This document shows positions 4,148 to 61,433 of a DNA stretch of 64,000 nucleotides, piece after piece; within the stretch, counting starts at the first letter, position 1; the number at the start of each line of letters is the position of its first letter. Origin of the DNA: Ancylobacter aquaticus (lineage in GTDB: Bacteria; Pseudomonadota; Alphaproteobacteria; Rhizobiales; Xanthobacteraceae). The position numbers and the translations under genes are program-made. Under the pieces are notes generated by a model, which saw only the letters and a program-made list of their open reading frames with translations, searched no databases and was not told the DNA's origin. The stretch lies in assembly GCF_004339465.1 (NCBI RefSeq), contig NZ_SMFY01000002.1, positions 558,001-622,000 of the forward strand. Direction: 5' to 3'.

Positions 4148-4193
4148 TTGTGGAACACAATAAGAACGGCTAGTCTTTGTTCGTGATTTGTTT
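4148..4193 (+). promoter_or_regulatory. lexA promoter with SOS box
   Basis: An exact alphaproteobacterial LexA box, GAAC-N7-GAAC, lies at 4153-4167. It sits in the 17-bp spacer of a plausible promoter (TTGTGG 4148-4153, TAGTCT 4171-4176). A second, imperfect half-matching box (GTTC-N7-GTTT) covers 4179-4193 near the expected start point. This arrangement predicts repression of lexA by its own product. The box is seen directly; the promoter hexamers are weaker. Confidence 0.8.
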
Positions 4194-4228: not shown

Positions 4229-4927
4229 ATGCTCACCCGCAAACAGCATGAACTGCTGCTGTTCATCAATGAACGCCTCCAACAGGACGGCGTCCCCCCT
4301 TCCTTCGAGGAAATGAAGGAAGCGCTGGACCTTCGCTCGAAGTCCGGCATTCACCGGCTGATCACGGCTCTGGAGGAGCGCGGCTTCATCCGCCGCCTGC
4401 CGAACCGGGCGCGCGCGTTGGAGGTGGTTCGCCTGCCGGAGGACGCGCAGCCCCAGCGGCCGGCCCGCACTTTCGCGCCCAATGTCATCGAGGGCAGTCT
4501 CGGCAAGGTACGCCCCTCTTCGGAGGACGATGCGGACCGCCGCGTGGTGTCTATCCCGGTCATGGGCCGCATCGCCGCCGGCACGCCGATTTCCGCCATC
4601 CAGTCGCGCGACCACACCATCGGCATGCCGCCGGAGATGCTGTCGGGCGGCGAGCATTACGCGCTGGAAGTACGCGGCGATTCGATGATCGAGGCCGGCA
4701 TTCTCGACGGCGATCTAGCGCTGATCCGCAAATGCGATGCGGCCAGCACCGGCGAGATCGTTGTCGCGCTGATCGACGACGAGGAAGCCACGCTGAAGCG
4801 CCTGCGCCGCAAGGGCGCCTCGGTGGCGCTCGAAGCCGCCAACCCGGCCTATGAGACGCGCATCTTCGGCCCGGACCGGGTGCGTATCCAGGGCAAGCTC
4901 GTCGGGCTTTTCCGCCGCTACTCATGA
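4229..4927 (+). CDS. lexA: SOS repressor LexA
   Basis: A 232-residue repressor of DNA-damage genes that cleaves itself when stimulated by RecA filaments. It has an N-terminal winged helix (1-65) with recognition region [18 protein letters not shown]. The self-cleavage Ala117-Gly118 bond lies within GRIAAGTP. The catalytic pair is Ser152 (RGDSM) and Lys190 (ATLKRL). The peptidase domain is complete. ATG 4229 is preferred over the adjacent GTG 4226. The gene follows an SOS box, so it is autoregulated. Its last 10 bp overlap the convergent comEC. Confidence 0.97.
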
Positions 4928-25634: not shown

Positions 25635-28600
25635 CTACGCCATCTCGACCATTTCGACACCGGGAACGGCCTTCAGCGCGCCGGCGATCTGCGGCGACAG
25701 GCTGAAGCGGCCGGGCAGTTTCACCTCGACCTCGGTATCACCACGCTCGCCCAGCAGCAGCACCAGAGACACCTCGCCATCGCCGCGCCCGCCGCCGAGC
25801 GAGCCGAGGCGCGCCGCCACGCTGTCCAGCGGCTCGGCCGAGCGCAGGAAGACCCGCATGCCCTTCTGTGTCTTCGAGGCCGCCTCGTCGAGCGGCTCGA
25901 CCGTCTGGATGCGCGCCCGCACCTCCTCGCCCTGCAGTTCCGCCGAGACCTGAAGAAGCAGCGCCTTTCCCGGCTCCAGCAATTCGCGATACTGCGCCAG
26001 GGCCTCCGAGAAGAGCACCGCCTCAAACTGGCCGGACGGGTCCGACAGGCCGACAATGCCCATCTTGTTGCCGCTCTTGGTGCGCCGCTCCTGCCGGCTC
26101 ACCACCGTAGCGGCAAGGCGCCCGGCCATGGAGCCGGCCCGTACCGAGCGGGTGAAGTCGGTCCAGCGCTGCACCCGCAGACGGTCAAGCGCCTTGCCGT
26201 AATCATCGAGCGGATGCCCGGTCAGAAAGAAGCCGATGGCATCATATTCGCGCTGGAGCTTCTCGGCCGGCAGCCAGGGGGCGGCATTGGGAATCGGCAG
26301 TTCCGCCTCCACTGACGGCCCACCGAACATGTTGCCCTGCCCCGAAGCCACTTCGGCCCCAACAGAGGCGGCATGGGCGAGAATGGAATCGACGGCCACC
26401 TGGGCCCGCGCACGGTTCTTCTCCACCGTGTCGAAGGCGCCGGCGCTGACGAGGCTCTCCATCGTCCGCTTGTTCAGCGCCTTGGCGTTGATGCGCGAGG
26501 CGAAATCGGCAAGGCTGGCAAAGGGCCTCCCGCCGCGCGCTTCCACAATGGCGTCGACCGAGTGGCCGCCAACGCCCTTGATGGCGGCAAGCGCGTAGAG
26601 GATGCGCCCATCCTTCACCGAGAATTCGCGCCCGGAAAGGTTCACCGAGGGCGCCACCACCTCAATGCCGAGGCGTTGCGATTCCTGGCGGAATTCCGCC
26701 AGCTTGTCGGTGTTGCCCATGTCGAGCGTCATGGAGGCGGCCATGAACTCGGTGGCGTAGTTCGCCTTCATGTAGGCGGTCTGGTACGACACCAGCGCAT
26801 AGGCCGCCGCGTGGCTCTTGTTGAAGCCGTAATCGGCGAATTTGGCGAGCAGGTCGAAAATCTCAGAGGCCTTGGCCTTCGGTACCCCGCGCTCCACCGC
26901 GCCATCGACGAAGCGGGCGCGCTGCTGGTCCATCTCGGCGCGGATTTTCTTGCCCATGGCGCGCCGCAGCATGTCGGCCTCGCCGAGCGAATAGCCCGAC
27001 AGGGTCTGCGCGATCTGCATCACCTGTTCCTGGTAGATGATGACGCCGTAGGTTTCCTTCAGGCTGGCCTCCAGCGCGGGATGGGCATAGGCGGCCTTCT
27101 CCTGCCCGTTCTTGACCGCGCAATAGACCGGAATATTCGCCATCGGGCCCGGACGATACAGGGCGACGAGGGCGATGATGTCCTCCAGCCGGTCCGGCTT
27201 CATGTCGACCAGCGCACGCCGCATGCCGGCGCTTTCCACCTGGAACACGCCGACCGTCTCACCGCGGGTCAGCATCTCGTAGGTCTTCTTGTCGTCCAGC
27301 GGGATGGTCGACAGGTCGAGCGTGATGCCGCGCTGTGCGACGAGGCGCACGGCGGTCTGCAATACGGTGAGCGTCTTCAGGCCGAGGAAGTCGAACTTCA
27401 CCAGCCCTGCCTGCTCGACCCATTTCATATTGTACTGGGTGACGGGCATGTCCGAGCGCGGGTCTCGGTAGAGCGGCACCAGCTGGGATAGTGGCCGGTC
27501 GCCGATGACGATGCCGGCGGCGTGGGTGGAGGCGTGGCGGTTGAGCCCTTCCAGCCGGGTTGCAATGTCGAAGGCGCGCTTCACCACCGGGTTGGCGTCG
27601 CTCTCGCCCTGCAGCTTGGGCTCGTCGTTGATCGCCTGCTTCAGCGTGACCGGGTTGGCCGGGTTCTGCGGCACCAGCTTGCACAGCTTGTCGACCTGGC
27701 CATAGGGCATTTCCAGCACGCGGCCGACATCGCGCAGCACGCCGCGCGCCTGCAGCGTACCGAAGGTGATGATCTGCGCCACCTGGTCACGCCCATAGCG
27801 CTGCTGCACATAGCGGATCACCTCGTCGCGCCGCTCCTGGCAGAAGTCGATGTCGAAATCCGGCATCGACACGCGCTCGGGGTTCAGGAAGCGCTCGAAC
27901 AGCAGGCCGAAGCGCAGCGGGTCGAGATCGGTGATGGTCAGCGAATAGGCAACGAGCGAACCCGCGCCCGAGCCACGGCCCGGCCCCACGGGAATGCCCT
28001 GCGCCTTCGCCCATTTGATGAAGTCGGCCACGATGAGAAAATAGCCGGGGAACTTCATCTTCTCGATGATGCTGAGCTCGAAGGCTAGCCGGTCTTCATA
28101 GTCCTTCTCGCTCAAGCCGGGCGTGGCGCCATGGACCGCCAGACGGTTGCGCAGCCCCTCCTCCGCCTGCAGGCGCAGTTCCTCCGCCTCGTCGCGATCG
28201 AGGGTGAAGCGCGGCAGGATCGGCTTGACCGTGCGAGGCCGGTACGCGCAACGCCGGGCAATCTCGACCGTATTGGCGAGCGCCTCGGGCAGATCGGCAA
28301 ACAGTGCCGCCATCTCGGCGCGGGTGCGGAAACGGTGATCGGGCGTGAGTTGCCGGCGATCGGCCTCCGCCACCAGCCGGCCCTCGGCGATGCAGATGAG
28401 GGCATCATGCGCCTCATAATCGTCCTGGGCGGCGAAGAAGGGCTCGTTGCTGGCCACCAGGGGCAGGTCGAGCCGGTAGGCCAGTTCGATCAGTGCTGGC
28501 TCGACGCGGCGCTCCTCGGCGACGCCATGGCGTTGGATTTCCACATAGAGCCGGTCGCCGAACAGCCCCTGCAGCACGGCGAGCCGCTGCTCGGCGTGGT

Positions 28601-29069
28601 CGGCGCTGCCGGCCGCGAACGCACGGTCGATGGGGCCGTTGGGGCCGCCGGTGAGGGCGATCAGGCCGTCCGTGTGGTCGTCCAGCCAGTCGGCCTTGAT
28701 ATGGGGGGCGCCGTCCGTCGCGGTTTCGAGAAAGGAGCGCGAGACAAGCGCCATCAGGTTCTTCCAGCCTTCCTCGCTGGCGGCGAGAAGAACGATGCGC
28801 GGGCGCTCCAGGCTGGCGGGGCCGCGCGGGGCTGGGCCGGGGAAATCCACCGCCACCGCGCACCCCAGAATCGGCTGGATGCCGGCGCCGGCCATCTTCT
28901 CGGAGAATTCCAGCGCGCCGAACAGATTGCCGGTGTCGGTCAGCGCGATGGCCGGCTGGCGGTCCTTCTTGGCGAGATCGGCCAGCTTGCCGATGCCAAG
29001 CGCGCCCTCCAGCAGCGAGAAGGAGGAATGGACATGAAGATGCACGAACCCGACATCAGCCTGCGCCAT
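25635..29069 (-). CDS. dnaE: DNA polymerase III subunit alpha
   Basis: The replicative polymerase catalytic subunit, 1144 residues. The PHP domain starts at once with HLHVHSSFSLLEGAL (about 9-23). The polymerase core holds the catalytic Asp pair in MPDFDIDFCQERRDEV. The tandem HhH and C-terminal OB domains (FTRSVRAGSMAGRLAATVVS onward) complete it. Length and position beside lolD mark it as the replicative DnaE1, not the SOS-linked DnaE2. ATG 29069 gives MAQADVGFVHLHVH; the frame above is leader. The mRNA leader carries hairpins at 29156-29208. Confidence 0.97.
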   Translation of the reverse strand: MAQADVGFVHLHVHSSFSLLEGALGIGKLADLAKKDRQPAIALTDTGNLFGALEFSEKMAGAGIQPILGCAVAVDFPGPAPRGPASLERPRIVLLAASEEGWKNLMALVSRSFLETATDGAPHIKADWLDDHTDGLIALTGGPNGPIDRAFAAGSADHAEQRLAVLQGLFGDRLYVEIQRHGVAEERRVEPALIELAYRLDLPLVASNEPFFAAQDDYEAHDALICIAEGRLVAEADRRQLTPDHRFRTRAEMAALFADLPEALANTVEIARRCAYRPRTVKPILPRFTLDRDEAEELRLQAEEGLRNRLAVHGATPGLSEKDYEDRLAFELSIIEKMKFPGYFLIVADFIKWAKAQGIPVGPGRGSGAGSLVAYSLTITDLDPLRFGLLFERFLNPERVSMPDFDIDFCQERRDEVIRYVQQRYGRDQVAQIITFGTLQARGVLRDVGRVLEMPYGQVDKLCKLVPQNPANPVTLKQAINDEPKLQGESDANPVVKRAFDIATRLEGLNRHASTHAAGIVIGDRPLSQLVPLYRDPRSDMPVTQYNMKWVEQAGLVKFDFLGLKTLTVLQTAVRLVAQRGITLDLSTIPLDDKKTYEMLTRGETVGVFQVESAGMRRALVDMKPDRLEDIIALVALYRPGPMANIPVYCAVKNGQEKAAYAHPALEASLKETYGVIIYQEQVMQIAQTLSGYSLGEADMLRRAMGKKIRAEMDQQRARFVDGAVERGVPKAKASEIFDLLAKFADYGFNKSHAAAYALVSYQTAYMKANYATEFMAASMTLDMGNTDKLAEFRQESQRLGIEVVAPSVNLSGREFSVKDGRILYALAAIKGVGGHSVDAIVEARGGRPFASLADFASRINAKALNKRTMESLVSAGAFDTVEKNRARAQVAVDSILAHAASVGAEVASGQGNMFGGPSVEAELPIPNAAPWLPAEKLQREYDAIGFFLTGHPLDDYGKALDRLRVQRWTDFTRSVRAGSMAGRLAATVVSRQERRTKSGNKMGIVGLSDPSGQFEAVLFSEALAQYRELLEPGKALLLQVSAELQGEEVRARIQTVEPLDEAASKTQKGMRVFLRSAEPLDSVAARLGSLGGGRGDGEVSLVLLLGERGDTEVEVKLPGRFSLSPQIAGALKAVPGVEMVEMA

Positions 29070-29155
29070 CCCTGATCCTCCCGCGACTCGAAGCCCTGCA
29101 TGGTGGGCGCCCATCCGGGCGGCGTCCACCCTCGCGGGGTCTTCCTCCCCGCTGT

Positions 29156-29208
29156 CCTCAGGCTGAAGGTCGGGGACCTTCATGCCTCAGGCTGAAGGCT
29201 TGACCTTC
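29156..29208. repeat. Direct repeat and hairpins in the dnaE leader
   Basis: A 14-bp direct repeat CCTCAGGCTGAAGG occurs at 29156-29169 and 29185-29198. Between the copies is a perfect 6-bp stem with 3-base loop, AAGGTC-GGG-GACCTT (29166-29180). A second short stem GAAGG/CCTTC follows the second copy (29194-29208). It lies between the 32-residue ORF and dnaE, so on the minus strand it could terminate or attenuate the upstream transcript. No T-tract is present. Confidence 0.6.
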
Positions 29209-29237
29209 GGCCCCAAGGTTGAGACCCGCGCCTAAGC

Positions 29238-29336
29238 TCACACCCCGGTGATGACGCCGGCCCACAGGCCGATCATGGCGACGAAAAGAGCGATGGACGC
29301 GAGCGCAGCGGTTTCCTGGACTAGAACGCGGATCAT
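29238..29336 (-). CDS. 32-residue single-pass membrane protein under SOS control (SidA-like candidate)
   Basis: A tiny ORF with a short amphipathic start (MIRVLVQETAALAS) and one hydrophobic helix (about residues 11-30, including ALFVAMIGLWAGVITG). A near-ideal ribosome binding site, GGAGG, lies 5 bp before ATG 29336. An in-frame ATG at 29348 would add four residues but has no such site. Two exact LexA boxes lie just upstream. Size, topology and SOS control match the Caulobacter division inhibitor SidA, a 29-residue inner-membrane protein acting on the FtsW/FtsN stage. Homology is not shown, so this functional link is inference. The gene lies between lolD and dnaE, 168 bp before dnaE. Confidence 0.65.
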   Translation of the reverse strand: MIRVLVQETAALASIALFVAMIGLWAGVITGV

Positions 29337-29349
29337 GTCGACCTCCATG

Positions 29350-29410
29350 GAACATAGAGAGAACATGACGCCCATTATCCCCGCAATCAATCCATGTTCT
29401 TCTTTCGTTC
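29350..29410 (-). promoter_or_regulatory. Double LexA box over the promoter of the small ORF
   Basis: GAAC-N7-GAAC at 29350-29364 and GTTC-N7-GTTC at 29396-29410 both match the alphaproteobacterial LexA site exactly. On the minus strand a GATAAT -10 lies between them (29379-29374). The downstream box covers the expected start region and the upstream box covers the -35 region, so LexA binding should block RNA polymerase completely. The remaining 29411-29477 stretch, next to the lolD stop, holds only a short CGCCG-ATT-CGGCG hairpin (29453-29465). Confidence 0.82.
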
Positions 29411-29477
29411 CAGTTCATGGTTGACGAAATCAAAACAGCCACGAACCCACCGCGCCGATTCGGCGTCAGGCCGCCTC

Positions 29478-30173
29478 TCAGGCCAGCTCGACGACCTTCC
29501 CCTCCCGCAGCGTCACGCGGCGGTGCATGCGGGAGGCGAGTTCGAGATTATGGGTGGCGATGACAGCCGCCAGCCCGGTGGCCTCCACCAGCTGCGACAG
29601 CGCATGGAAAACGTGGTCGGCGGTGTGCGGGTCGAGATTGCCGGTCGGCTCATCGGCCAGCAGCACGCGCGGGGCGTTGGCGACGGCGCGGGCGATGGCG
29701 ACGCGCTGCTGCTCGCCGCCGGAGAGTTCGCCGGGCCGGTGCTCCAGCCGCTTGGCGAGGCCGAGATAGCTCAGCAGTTCCTTCGCCCGCGACGCCGCCT
29801 CGCGGCGCGAAAGGCCACGGATCATCTGCGGCAGCATGACGTTTTCCTGCGCCGAGAACTCGGGCAGCAGATGGTGGAACTGGTAGACGAAGCCGACGCC
29901 GGTGCGGCGGATGCGCGTGCGCTCGGCATCGGGAAGCCCGGCCGTCGCGGTGCCGCCGATGAAGACCTCGCCGGCGTCCTGATTCTCCAGCAGGCCGGCA
30001 ATGTGCAGCAGCGTCGACTTGCCGGTGCCGGACGGCGCGACGAGGGCCACCGACTGGCCCTCCAGCACGGTGAAGTCGGCGCCGCGCAGGATTTCCAGCG
30101 TGCCCTCGCCCTGGACATAGCGGCGCTCGACCCCTTCGAGGTGGAGAGCGGCGCGCGGTGGAGTGGTCGACAT
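29478..30173 (-). CDS. lolD: Lipoprotein-releasing ABC transporter ATP-binding protein
   Basis: The ATPase of the LolCDE-type complex that extracts outer-membrane lipoproteins from the inner membrane. The protein is 231 residues. Walker A is APSGTGKST (46-54), the Q-loop is in [13 protein letters not shown], the signature is [14 protein letters not shown] and Walker B is [12 protein letters not shown]. The [17 protein letters not shown] segment is typical of LolD. The start lies 11 bp after the lolC stop. Confidence 0.96.
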
Positions 30174-38043: not shown

Positions 38044-39558
38044 TCAAGGCAGCACCAGCGCGGCGGCCTTGATGGCGCCGGCCGCAACATCGGCGCGCGC
38101 GACAATCGCGTTCACCGCAACATTGCAGGCGTCGAGGATCGGCTGCGGCCAGATGCCGAACAGGATGGTGAAGAACAGCAGCGGAACGAGCGTGGCCAGT
38201 TCGCGCGGGCTCACATCCTGGATGTTCTTCAGGCTTTCCTTCTCCAGCGCGCCGAAGACGACCCGTCGATAGAGCCAGAGCGCATAGGCGGCGGAAAGGA
38301 TGACGCCCGTGGTGGCGAAGAAGGCTACCCAGGTGTTGCGCCCGAAGGCGGCCAGCAGGGTCAGGAACTCGCCGACGAAGCCCGACGTCCCCGGCAGGCC
38401 GACATTGGCCATGGTGAAGACCATGAACAGCGTGGCGTAGACGGGCATGCGGAAGACGAGGCCGCCATAGGCCGCGATCTCGCGGGTGTGCATGCGGTCA
38501 TAGAGGACGCCCACGCACAGGAACAGCGCGCCCGACACAAAGCCGTGGCTGACCATCTGGAACACCGCGCCCTGGATGCCCTCCTGCGTCAGCGTGAAGA
38601 TGCCCATCGTCACGTAGCCCATATGGGCGACGGAGGAGTAGGCAATCAGCTTCTTCATGTCATCCTGCCGCAGCGCGACCAGCGACGTGTAGACGATCGC
38701 GATCACCGAGAGGGTGAAGACGAAGGGCGCGAAATAGGTCGAGGCATCGGGGAACATGGGCAGCGAGAAGCGCAGCAGGCCGTAGCCGCCCATCTTCAGC
38801 ATGATCGCCGCCAGGATCACCGAACCCGCCGTTGGCGCCTCGACATGCGCGTCGGGAAGCCAGGTATGCACCGGCCACATCGGCATTTTCACCGCGAAGG
38901 AGGCGAAGAAGGCGATCCAGAGCCAGTACTGCATGCCCTCCGGGAAATCGTGCTTCAGGAGAACGGCGATGTCGGTGGTGCCCGCCTGCCAGTAGATGGC
39001 CATGATGGCGAGCATCATCAGCACCGAACCGGCCAACGTGTAGAGGAAGAACTTGAACGCAGCGTAGACCTTACGCCCATGCCCCCAAATGCCGATGATA
39101 AGGAACATCGGGATCAGGCCGCCCTCGAAGAAGAAGTAGAACAGCAGCAGATCGAGGACGGAGAAGGTGCCGATCATCAGCGTTTCGAGCACCAGGAAGC
39201 AGATCATGTACTCCTTCACGCGGTGCTGGATCGCGTCCCAGCTCGCGAGAATGCACATGGGCATGAGCAGCGTCGTCAGCAGCACGAAGGGCAGCGAAAT
39301 GCCGTCGACGCCCATCCGGTAGGCGGCGACGTCGCCGAGCCAGGCCTGGTACTCGACGAACTGGAAATCGGGATTCGACGGGTCGAAGCCAAACAGCAAC
39401 AGCAGCGAGATGACGAAGGTGACGAGGGTCGCCCACAGCGCCACCCAGCGGGCGTTGCGCTTGGCCACCTCGTCGTCGCCGCGGATCATCAGGATGATCA
39501 GCAGCGCACCGACCAGCGGCAGGAACGTGACGACGGAAAGAATGGGCCAGTCGTACAT
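38044..39558 (-). CDS. nuoM: NADH-quinone oxidoreductase subunit M
   Basis: A proton-pumping antiporter-like subunit in the complex I membrane arm. The protein is 504 residues. The conserved Glu lies in [19 protein letters not shown]. The pump lysines lie in [17 protein letters not shown] and [16 protein letters not shown]. The start overlaps the nuoL stop by one base, so translation is coupled. Confidence 0.97.
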
Positions 39559-44330: not shown

Positions 44331-46409
44331 TCACTCGGCCGCCGCCGCGAGGCGGCTGGACGCGAGCGCGGAGCATTCGGCCATCACGGCAGACGCGCGT
44401 GCGATCGGATTGGTGAGATAGAAATCGGTGACGACGCCCCGGAACGGCCCGCTCACCGGCGTTCCACTCGCCGAGGCCAGCGCGGTTACGCCGGCCGGGT
44501 CCGCCGGGGTCACATGGTCGATCCGGGCCAGATGCGGATGCGCCGCATAGAGCGCCGCGCGAAGCTGCGCCAGATTGTCGAACGGCAGGCGATGGCCGAC
44601 GACGTCGGACAGGGCGCGCAGCACGGCCCAGTCCTCGCGCGCCTCGCCGGGCGGGAAGGCGGCGCGGTTGGCGATCTGCGCCCGCCCTTCCGTGTTCACG
44701 TAAGTGCCGGACTTCTCTGTGTAGGCGGCGCCCGGCAGGATGACGTCGGCGCGATGGGCGCCGCGATCGCCATGGGTGCCGAGATAGACCACGAAGGCCC
44801 CCGGGGCGATGTCGATCTCGTCGGCGCCGAGGGCGAACACCACATCGGCGCCGCCGGCATTGGTCATCGTCACCGCGTCGAGCCCGTTCTCATCAGGCAC
44901 CGCGCCGATATCGAGCGCACCGACGCGGGAGGCGGCCGTGTGCAGCACGCAGAAGCCGTTCCAGCCTTCCGCCACCGCGCCGACACCGACCGCCACGCGG
45001 GCGGCCAGCGCCAGCACCGCCGCCCCGTCAGCACGGGCGAGAGCGCCCTGCCCGATCAGGATCAGCGGACGCTTGGCGCCCTTCAGCGTCTCGGCAAAGC
45101 TGCCGCTGGCGAGCAGGTCCGCCAGCGTGTCGGAACCGGCGCCGAGATAGTCATAGGGGTAGGTCAGATCGACCGGCTCGCCGATCAGGCCAATCGGGAA
45201 GCCCCCCTGCAGCCAGCGCTTGCGGATGCGGGCATTGAGCACGCTCGCCTCAAGGCGCGGGTTGGAGCCGATGATCAGCAGCGCATCCGCCTGCTCGATG
45301 CCGGCAATGGTGGCGTTGAACAGATAGCTGGCGCGGCCGAGCGACGGGTCGATCTTCGCCCCGTCCTGGCGGCAGTCAATGCTGGACGAGCCGAGCGCGG
45401 CCAGCAGCGCCTTCAGCGCGAACGCCTCTTCCACCGAGGCGAGATCGCCAACCAGCCCGCCGATGCGGTTGCCGGGCACGCCCTTCACCTTCTCGGCGAT
45501 AGCGGCGAAGGCTTGGGGCCAGCTCGCTGGCGTCAGCTTGCCGCCGACGCGCACATAGGGGCGATCGAGGCGCTGGGTTTTCAGACCGTCCCAGATGTAG
45601 CGGGTCTTGTCGGAGATCCACTCCTCGTTCACGTCCTCATTCAGACGCGGGAGGACGCGCATGACCTCGCGGCCGCGCGTGTCGACGCGGATGTTGGAGC
45701 CGACGGCGTCCATCACGTCGATGGACTCGGTCTTCGTGAGCTCCCAGGGTCGGGCATGGTAGGCATAGGGCCGCTGCGTCAGCGCGCCGACCGGGCAGAG
45801 GTCGGCGACATTGCCCTGGAGTTCCGAGGACATCGCCGCTTCGAGATAGGTGGTGATCTCCATGTCCTCGCCGCGCCCGATGGCGCCGAGCTCGGCGACC
45901 CCCGCCACCTCGGTGGTGAAGCGCACACAGCGGGTGCACTGGATGCAGCGCGTCATCGAGGTCTTGATCAGCGGGCCGATATATTTGTCCTCGACCGCGC
46001 GCTTGTTCTCGGCATAGCGGGACGTGTCCACGCCATAGGCCATGGCCTGGTCCTGCAGGTCGCACTCACCGCCCTGGTCGCAGATCGGGCAGTCGAGCGG
46101 GTGGTTGATGAGCAGGAACTCCATCACCCCTTCGCGCGCCTTCTTCACCATCGGGCTCTTGGTGAGCACGACGGGCGGCTCGCCATTCGGGCCTGGGCGC
46201 AGGTCGCGTACATTCATCGCGCAGCTTGCCGTCGGCTTGGGCGGACCACCCTTCACCTCGACAAGGCACATGCGGCAATTGCCGGCGATTGACAGCCGCT
46301 CATGGAAGCAGAAGCGCGGGATTTCCGCGCCCGCCGCCTCGCAGGCCTGGAGCAGCGTGAACTCCGGCGGAACATCAAGCTCGATGTCGTCGACGATGAT
46401 CTTGGCCAT
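44331..46409 (-). CDS. nuoG: NADH-quinone oxidoreductase subunit G
   Basis: The largest peripheral subunit, 692 residues, holding one 2Fe-2S and two 4Fe-4S clusters. N-terminal ferredoxin cysteines lie in [15 protein letters not shown]. The His/Cys cluster is in [15 protein letters not shown], and the third is in [12 protein letters not shown]. The molybdopterin-oxidoreductase-like domain after residue 220 binds no Mo. The extra fourth cluster N7 of E. coli is not evident. It starts 9 bp after nuoF. Confidence 0.97.
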
Positions 46410-59834: not shown

Positions 59835-61433
59835 TTAGATCGGCACGCGCTGGGGGCGCTGCCAGCGCACCCACAGCGCCACCATAAGGCGGGTCAGCGT
59901 GAAGGCGGTGAAGACGGTGGTCATGATGCCGATGCCGAAGGTGATGGCGAAACCACGCACCGGGCCGGAACCGACATAGAACAGCACCGCTGCCGCGATG
60001 AAGGTCGTGATGTTGGAATCGAGAATCGTCGACAACGCGCGGGAGAAGCCGGCGTCGATGGCCGAAATCGCCGATCGTCCCGCCCTCGCCTCCTCGCGGA
60101 TGCGCTCATAGATCAGCACGTTCGAGTCCACCGCGATGCCGACCGTGAGCACGACGCCGGCGATGCCGGGCAGCGACAGCGTCGCCCCAAGCATGGCCAG
60201 AAGCCCGAAGATCATGCCGACATTGATCGCCACGGCGATGTTGGCGATGACGCCGAACAGGCCGTAGGTCGCCACCATGAACAGTGCCACCAGAGTCGCG
60301 CCGACAATCGAGGCGATGAGGCCGGCCCGGATCGAATCGGCGCCGAGGCCCGGCCCGACCGTGCGCTCTTCCACCACCTGGAGCGGCACCGGCAGGGCAC
60401 CGGCGCGTAGCAGGATGGAGAGGTCGTTCGCTTCCTGAACGGTGAAATTGCCGCTGATCTGGCCGGAACCACCCAGGATCGGCTCGCGGATGACCGGCGC
60501 CGAGATGACGTGGTTGTCGAGGATGATGGCGAAGGGCCGCCCAACATTGGCCTGCGTCGCTTCGGCGAAGCGGCGGGCGCCATTGGTGTTGAAGCGGAAG
60601 GTGACGACCGGCTCGCGCGTCGTCGGTTCAAAGCCCGGCTGCGCGTCGGTGAGGTCCTCGCCGGCGACCAGCACGCGCTGTTCGATCAGATACGGAACCG
60701 GCGGGTTGTCCTGGGAGGTGAGGACGTCCGTCCCGGCCGGCGCGCGGCCCTGCAGCGCCTGCTGCGGGCTCATCGTGTTATCGACGAGGCGAAAGGTCAG
60801 CTGCGCGGTCTGGCCGAGAAGGGCCTTCAGCCGCGAGGGGTCCTGCAAGCCCGGCACCTGCACCTGGATGCGGTCGGCACCCTGGCGCTGGATGGAGGGC
60901 TCGGTAGTGCCGAGCTGGTCGATGCGCTTGCGGATGATTTCGATCGACTGCGACACCGCCTGTATGGTGCGGGACTGGACGCCGGCCGAAGTCGGCGCCA
61001 GCTCGATGGTGTTGCCTGAGCGCGAGACATCGGTGTCGAGCTGGCCCGTCGTCGCCATGGCGCCGCCGATCGGCAGCGCCAGCGTGCGCAGCTGGGTGAG
61101 CGCCGCCTCGACATCCTGGCCCTCGCGGATACGCACCTCGACCGCCTCGCCCTGGATGGCAAGGCCGGTATAGCCGATCTTGGCGTCGCGCAGCACGCGA
61201 CGGGCGTCGTCGCGCAGCTGCTCAAGCCGGATCTTGCGCACCGATTGGGCATCGACCTGCAGGACGATGTAGGACCCACCCTGGAGGTCCAGGCCCAGCA
61301 CGATCTTGCGCTGGAGGAAGCTCGGCAGGCTGTCATAGGCGGACTGCGACAACAGGCTGGGCACGGCCATCAGACAGATGATGGCCGAGACCGCCAGGAT
61401 CGCGAACGCCTTCCATTTCGAGAAGTAAAGCAT
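59835..61433 (-). CDS. secD: Protein translocase subunit SecD
   Basis: The partner of SecF, 532 residues. After one N-terminal helix (8-30), LGLDLQGGSYIVLQV opens the large periplasmic P1 region (about 45-360). Five more helices follow, with GVVLTVGIAVDSNVLIYERIREE holding the proton-path Asp. The C-terminal motif RGFAITFGIGIMTTVFTAF is typical. Follows yajC by 49 bp. Confidence 0.97.
   Translation of the reverse strand: MLYFSKWKAFAILAVSAIICLMAVPSLLSQSAYDSLPSFLQRKIVLGLDLQGGSYIVLQVDAQSVRKIRLEQLRDDARRVLRDAKIGYTGLAIQGEAVEVRIREGQDVEAALTQLRTLALPIGGAMATTGQLDTDVSRSGNTIELAPTSAGVQSRTIQAVSQSIEIIRKRIDQLGTTEPSIQRQGADRIQVQVPGLQDPSRLKALLGQTAQLTFRLVDNTMSPQQALQGRAPAGTDVLTSQDNPPVPYLIEQRVLVAGEDLTDAQPGFEPTTREPVVTFRFNTNGARRFAEATQANVGRPFAIILDNHVISAPVIREPILGGSGQISGNFTVQEANDLSILLRAGALPVPLQVVEERTVGPGLGADSIRAGLIASIVGATLVALFMVATYGLFGVIANIAVAINVGMIFGLLAMLGATLSLPGIAGVVLTVGIAVDSNVLIYERIREEARAGRSAISAIDAGFSRALSTILDSNITTFIAAAVLFYVGSGPVRGFAITFGIGIMTTVFTAFTLTRLMVALWVRWQRPQRVPI

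Follow-up and report, generated by a model that had tools for sequence, protein, structure and literature searches.

The window analyzed here is a stretch of 64,000 nucleotides from Ancylobacter aquaticus (contig NZ_SMFY01000002.1), and the locus of interest lies on its minus strand between a lolD-type gene and dnaE. The dnaE open reading frame (ORF), encoding the DNA polymerase III alpha subunit, occupies 25635..29183 (minus strand; NF004226, 1504.8 bits, cut-off 1002), and judging from the conserved N-terminus its start is likely at 29069. The upstream neighbor (29478..30173, minus strand) encodes a lolD-type ABC ATPase, for which TIGR02211 LolD was the best of 98 families with 244.2 bits, a score under the cut-off of that model (307.75). 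In the gap between them, the sequence reads as a minus-strand ORF of 32 codons plus TGA (29238..29336; ATG at 29336-29334, TGA at 29240-29238) that would encode a SidA-like small membrane protein, MIRVLVQETAALASIALFVAMIGLWAGVITGV, and stop 168 bp before the likely dnaE start. A ribosome-binding site, GGAGG (29342..29346, minus strand), is located 5 bases upstream of the ATG. The peptide is predicted to form a single hydrophobic helix (best 19-residue Kyte-Doolittle mean 2.34) with a low hydrophobic moment (0.34), and its only charged residues, R3 and E8, lie outside the helix. The small ORF, its GGAGG and its one helix, all of which had been pointed out in a sequence-only reading of this DNA, were thus borne out by the reading of the sequence and by hydropathy. 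A Pfam search of the peptide returned zero matches, and an NCBIfam search returned nothing above any cut-off, SidA appearing below its cut-off together with a chance methyltransferase match.

The peptide was matched in 29 of 30 same-genus genomes, the source genome included (E ≤ 2.7e-8), and the one genome of the 30 without a match (G021) is a 220-contig assembly with 8% contamination. Matches were also found in 41 of 61 further genomes of the same family (E ≤ 0.0055), while at E ≤ 1 a total of 97 of 151 genomes matched, many of the weak matches probably by chance. Among the 29 genus copies, the length is 32 residues in 28 and 34 in one, and GGAGG occurs within 18 bp of the start in 25. The 27 distinct coding sequences of the genus gave a pN/pS of 0.30 (pS 0.388, pN 0.115), against a mean of 1.04 and a minimum of 0.49 in a column-shuffle control (200 shuffles, 60 pairs each), and the variable columns at codon positions 1, 2, and 3 numbered 18, 6, and 27 of 31. 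Kept in 29 of 30 same-genus genomes and under purifying selection, the ORF is a real gene whose frame is selected as a protein. Searches by tblastn found nothing in plasmids and phages with this peptide, and nothing in phages with the peptide of a second copy (see below), such short queries being weak there. An HMM search of 385 genomes of the class with a profile of Hyphomicrobiales peptides returned 21 genomes at E ≤ 0.05, two of them family members; it gave no convincing match outside the family, the rest being short or partial and mostly inside longer frames. By sequence alone the family looks narrow, and its breadth is visible only through the synteny survey described below.

Two exact LexA boxes precede the small ORF, box 1, GTTCTCTCTATGTTC (29350..29364, minus strand), and box 2, GTTCTTCTTTCGTTC (29396..29410, plus strand), 46 bp apart from start to start. 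The earlier reading had described two exact boxes of the form GAAC-N7-GTTC; the boxes are indeed there and exact, but they are direct repeats, GTTC-N7-GTTC; GAAC-N7-GTTC has only two exact matches in the window, at 4250 and 22640, away from this locus. The direct repeat occurs six times in the window against 1.09 expected, a number reached in 0 of 100 shuffles, and 121 times in the whole genome, compared with 52 for the backwards pattern. According to a review, the SOS box of Caulobacter is the same direct repeat (PMC9578287). The lexA gene lies in the same window (4232..4918, plus strand; TIGR00498, 180.7 bits, over the cut-off) with an exact box upstream (4153..4167, minus strand), which supports this box form here, and recA of the source genome has an exact box 120 bp before its matched start. 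Because both lexA and recA carry it, we take GTTC-N7-GTTC as the LexA box form in this genome, and we infer that LexA binds the predicted boxes of the small ORF. Three more exact sites lie inside long frames (38173-38187, 46359-46373, and 59968-59982) and may be due to chance.

The GATAAT proposed earlier as the -10 element is present between the boxes (29379-29374), but it is not kept in the genus; the alignment columns are not conserved there, and this candidate was rejected. Between the boxes, the genus copies preserve a TTGA motif directly following the upstream box, together with the beginning of the downstream one. These columns suggest a putative promoter (29363..29390, minus strand) with a -35 element, TTGATT (29390-29385), a spacing of 16 bp, and a -10 element, TCATGT (29368-29363), overlapping the downstream box, box 1; a scan for consensus promoters at the locus found nothing. 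The pairing of the boxes around the promoter suggests tight repression, as a potent inhibitor would need.

The boxes accompany the gene well beyond the genus. Of 92 loci, 91 could be oriented (L146, without a start, was dropped), and 79 oriented Hyphomicrobiales loci were flanked by dnaE or lolD in the sequence examined (78 by dnaE, 59 by lolD); L061 and L065, also linked, fall outside the 79, as members of the SidA-bearing family introduced below. An exact box was found within 100 bp of the start in all 79 copies, and two boxes in 65. The spacing from the first forward to the first reverse box is 46 bp in 26 and 47 bp in 3 of the 29 genus copies; in the 50 Hyphomicrobiales copies from outside the genus it is 18 bp in 32, and 14 have no such pair. 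Among the 10 copies with neither dnaE nor lolD in view, L101 is boxed and nine are without an exact box. We also looked for boxes that persist where the reading frame is not conserved, the outcome set beforehand as speaking against a small SOS effector, and found instead that frame, length, and boxes are kept together.

SidA of Caulobacter is a 29-residue inner-membrane protein described as the main SOS-induced division inhibitor, which binds FtsW and has been proposed, together with DidA, to keep FtsW/I/N inactive (PMC4211646). Loss of LexA in Caulobacter leads to filamentous cells through sidA (PMC12700426), and SidA was recently modeled, with low confidence, on TM7 of FtsW (2026 paper; PMC13396833). 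Run against 289 genomes of the class, the SidA model NF033228 gave no match over its cut-off, and its best and fifth-best matches (G427 and G213) were located just before dnaE. In the order of G427 and G213 the cut-off was passed in 25 of 200 genomes, all 25 in one family, and we infer that this family is the Caulobacteraceae because it alone has ORFs over the SidA cut-off. All 25 copies are followed by dnaE within 400 bp on the same strand, and lolD was found upstream in 21 (1.5 kb upstream examined); an exact LexA box is present in 16, and the remaining 9 show one-mismatch box pairs. Since 25 of 25 copies over the cut-off precede dnaE, SidA by NCBI's own criterion occupies the slot before dnaE. 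The one-mismatch boxes of the nine copies (L153-L156, L158-L160, L169, and L170) are 18 bp apart, the same spacing as in 32 of the 50 Hyphomicrobiales copies from outside the genus. In the portion of the literature covered by our search there was no report of SidA outside Caulobacter, and an earlier notice is possible; nor did that portion explain how the division arrest that follows DNA damage is brought about in other alphaproteobacteria.

The window ORF scored 13.9 bits (E 0.04) against NF033228, under the equivalog cut-off of 35, and by that measure is not a SidA equivalog; only 2 of 37 Hyphomicrobiales members matched this model at E ≤ 1. Because the SidA-bearing family itself has dnaE-linked ORFs that miss the cut-off (for example, with 33.2, 26.3, and 18.1 bits), the cut-off marks a narrow group. 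Two profiles were built, one from the 37 Hyphomicrobiales peptides and one from 18 peptides that occupy the slot in the SidA-bearing family, 13 of them over the cut-off and 5 below, and hhalign aligned them with an E of 6.9e-5, a probability of 63, which is not high, and 28% identity. The window ORF scored 12.7 bits against the 18-peptide SidA profile, above all 3000 of its own block shuffles, in which the N-terminal and helix blocks were kept (maximum 11.9), and above all 193 unrelated short hydrophobic ORFs (maximum 4.6). Similarity beyond composition was thus found for the window ORF and is weaker for many other members: measured against block shuffles, 14 of the 37 ranked within the top 1% and 22 within the top 5%, and 18 scored above the best natural control. 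In the reverse direction, with SidA peptides against the Hyphomicrobiales profile, 11 of 18 ranked in the top 1% and 16 in the top 5%; the best of 3000 block shuffles (16.1) exceeded every real SidA peptide (best 12.4), and whole-peptide shuffles reached 12.4, equal to the best SidA peptide. As for the natural controls, the maxima in a first set of 88 ORFs were 12.3 and 59.0, of which the 59.0 presumably belongs to a longer version of the window ORF itself; a second set, of 245, contained four ORFs that outscored all 37 members (13.9-16.8). The second set included loci chosen by their match to the SidA model and was redone without them, so that the third (193 ORFs) left out the SidA-model loci, the window ORF, and a Methylobrevis frame taken as a family member.

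The regions up to 900 bp before dnaE were surveyed in 60 genomes of the order (roughly one from each family), 60 genomes of the class, and 80 genomes of a named collection. Exact boxes were present in 30, 15, and 57 of these regions, respectively, and in none of 78 comparison stretches of 900 bp from other places, which were not matched for being intergenic, while the reversed pattern occurred in 3, 3, and 3. A small hydrophobic ORF, chosen without any profile, lies just after the box in 25 of 30 boxed order regions, 11 of 15 class regions, and 56 of 57 named-set regions, compared with 30 of 980 random positions in box-free regions. Where the box is absent, the ORF is nearly always absent too. 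When an ORF was counted by a profile score above 6.5 bits (the next control after the Methylobrevis frame scored 6.1), the 200 regions, with kin genomes counted as independent, comprised 84 with both, 18 with the box only, 3 with the ORF only, and 95 with neither. The threshold matters, in that at 18 bits the numbers were 60, 42, 1, and 97, and the class set alone then shows no coincidence of box and ORF. The 80 named-set regions divide into 56 with both, 1 with the box only, 1 with the ORF only, and 22 with neither. Two reverse-strand control matches (17.8 bits) proved to be one Methylobrevis frame in two copies of one genome.

The peptides of these regions share a spacing pattern with SidA. 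An acidic residue followed by phenylalanine ten residues on ([DE]-x9-F) is found in 18 of 18 SidA-group peptides, in 47 of 53 peptides of the named set, and in 20 of 25 of the order survey, against a background of 13% in shuffles and 9% in natural controls. In the peptides of the order and class surveys, x9 is clearly the preferred spacing, found in 22 of 36, with 13 for the runner-up. Outside the order the pattern weakens, and the class survey gives a fainter picture than that of the order: of its 60 regions, 15 have an exact box, 11 of these 15 have a small hydrophobic ORF, and only 2 of those 11 have [DE]-x9-F. A tryptophan at +17, seven residues past the phenylalanine, distinguishes 43 of the 53 named-set peptides from the SidA group (0 of 18).

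Among the 23 box-free regions of the named set are all nine from Xanthobacter and Aquabacter and also, for example, four from Enterovirga. The nine Xanthobacter and Aquabacter regions (L339-L343, L345, L347, L349, and L352) have neither boxes nor ORF, an apparent joint loss of box and gene beside genera that keep both. Whole-genome searches found no copy elsewhere in six of seven Xanthobacter and Aquabacter genomes; in the seventh, a weak match fell within a frame of 553 residues. The only boxed named-set region lacking a forward ORF is that of Methylobrevis albus (L401), in which a longer ORF on the opposite strand starts just past the boxes and ends in MVRDVAALGALTAFATMLAVVVGGA, a SidA-like helix. 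Because box and ORF coincide in the survey and the Methylobrevis boxes front an opposite-strand ORF, the boxes seem to follow the small gene rather than dnaE. In L211, from the same family as the Methylobrevis genome G760, the helix lies at -298 and the box at -574; this is perhaps an N-terminally extended form.

Second SidA-like copies were observed in nine same-genus genomes (L091, L092, L095, L126, L135, L140, L142, L145, and L150), away from dnaE and with no exact LexA box within 200 bp. Those of L095 and L140 start right at the end of a ProQ/FinO-family gene (Pfam), similar upstream frames were seen by eye in at least L091, L142, and L145, and an HTH gene lies near the copy in L095. The regions look mobile, by eye only. 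The source genome has no second copy at E ≤ 0.05.

Judging from place, control, size, and pattern, the window protein in all likelihood works like SidA and shares its origin. We consider it quite probable that this LexA-repressed, one-helix inner-membrane protein is the positional and probably the true ortholog of Caulobacter SidA, a division inhibitor acting on FtsW. The suggestion of the sequence-only reading that the locus encodes a small SOS effector, possibly a SidA-like division inhibitor, is therefore supported as far as sequence goes, by the frame, the boxes, and the slot shared with SidA. By homology and place, we carry the mechanism of SidA over to the window protein. DNA damage would activate RecA, and LexA would be cleaved and leave both boxes, whereupon a short mRNA would be made. 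The 32-residue protein would then insert into the inner membrane, with the N-terminus probably inside, as its charge indicates. As in Caulobacter, it would bind the septal cell-wall synthase FtsW and hold FtsW/FtsI/FtsN inactive, so that division would wait for repair. The further idea of a special role for the polymerase gene, whose neighborhood would tie replication stress to division arrest, gained no support; the cue would come through LexA, and the Methylobrevis boxes appear to face an ORF on the strand opposite to dnaE.

It might be argued that the boxes serve dnaE and place the polymerase under LexA, with the small ORF acting as a leader or upstream ORF that adjusts dnaE translation. 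Indeed, dnaE follows about 168 bp further on, on the same strand, and a terminator scan found one site, upstream of the boxes (29440-29454), and none between the small ORF and dnaE. Moreover, Ribo-seq in Sinorhizobium placed sORF25 in the 5'-UTR of dnaE1, and upstream-ORF roles were suggested for such ORFs (PMC10117765). We nevertheless hold this to be very unlikely: dnaE is in every surveyed region, yet the boxes come and go with the ORF, as the named set illustrates, and even the lone box-only region of that set, from Methylobrevis, has an ORF that starts just past the boxes on the other strand and ends in a SidA-like helix. The amino-acid conservation also exceeds the needs of a plain leader, and the two starts, that of the small ORF and the matched one of dnaE, are anywhere between 220 and 361 bp apart in 28 of the 29 genus copies (in the remaining copy, L036, dnaE was not seen in the stretch examined).

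Two other explanations accept the small gene and question its target or its origin. TisB is an SOS-controlled single-helix peptide, amphipathic with charged residues, and is paired with an antisense antitoxin RNA. DinQ is an SOS-regulated, toxic peptide with a single transmembrane segment (PMC3567139). A membrane-depolarizing peptide of this kind would lower the membrane potential and slow growth without blocking FtsW, and the size, the single helix, and the LexA control of the window protein would all fit. The helix here is uncharged with a moment of 0.34, unlike the amphipathic TisB; Rfam, which covers known families only, gave no match in 28900-29700 and hence no known antitoxin RNA; and SidA, in the same slot, acts on FtsW (PMC4211646), which together make a depolarizing peptide improbable in our opinion, and markedly so. 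It is also conceivable that separate LexA-run small membrane peptides converged in this slot, possibly with other targets such as FtsN, and that the window protein is no homolog of SidA. The similarity between the two groups is low (28% identity, probability 63), and Caulobacter itself has another small division inhibitor, DidA, that acts on FtsN (PMC4211646). Against this, slot, strand, control, and size are common to both groups, as is the peak of the [DE]-x9-F spacing (22 of 36; 18 of 18 in the SidA group), and we judge convergence unlikely.

On balance, SidA may well be no specialty of Caulobacter but one local version of an ancient SOS division checkpoint of the Alphaproteobacteria, encoded beside dnaE, the sequence of which drifts fast while box, place, size, and pattern persist. 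Box and gene would then have been lost as a unit in Xanthobacter and Aquabacter, and the unboxed Ancylobacter copies would be under another controller. Because of the fast drift, homology searches and gene finders would miss such a checkpoint, proteins of 32 residues being easily missed by gene finders in any case, and in our best reading a SidA-like inhibitor is older and more widespread than annotation shows. The locus offers an easily cloned candidate for an SOS division inhibitor in many genera, and nature supplies, by the dozen, variants of a helix that may bind FtsW. It provides a rule for finding more as well, namely a LexA box and a one-helix ORF of 25-40 residues just before dnaE, and it cautions against assigning every LexA box upstream of dnaE to the polymerase gene.

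Among known systems, TisB and DinQ of Escherichia coli resemble the window peptide as SOS-controlled single-helix peptides; they are toxic membrane peptides with antisense RNAs, whereas no known RNA family was found at the window locus. YneA of Bacillus subtilis, SosA of Staphylococcus, and ChiZ of Mycobacterium are damage-induced small membrane inhibitors of late division in other lineages. YneA binds FtsW, a LysM domain that is absent from SosA is mentioned, and SidA is predicted to lie on the opposite side of FtsW TM7 (PMC13396833). DidA of Caulobacter, compared here by its description only, is a small damage-induced membrane inhibitor of the FtsW/I/N complex, as proposed for the window protein, and differs in being induced through DriD instead of LexA and in having FtsN as its target (PMC4211646). 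The window ORF differs from SidA in its score (13.9 bits against a cut-off of 35), in being known here from sequence alone, and in lacking the F-x-W of the SidA group, with a tryptophan at +17 instead. SidA (NF033228) is nevertheless the closest counterpart: the two have in common a length of 29-32 residues, one helix, and one or more LexA boxes just upstream, a glutamate or aspartate near the helix start with a phenylalanine ten residues on, and, as seen here rather than taken from the literature, the same strand and the same place before dnaE with lolD upstream.
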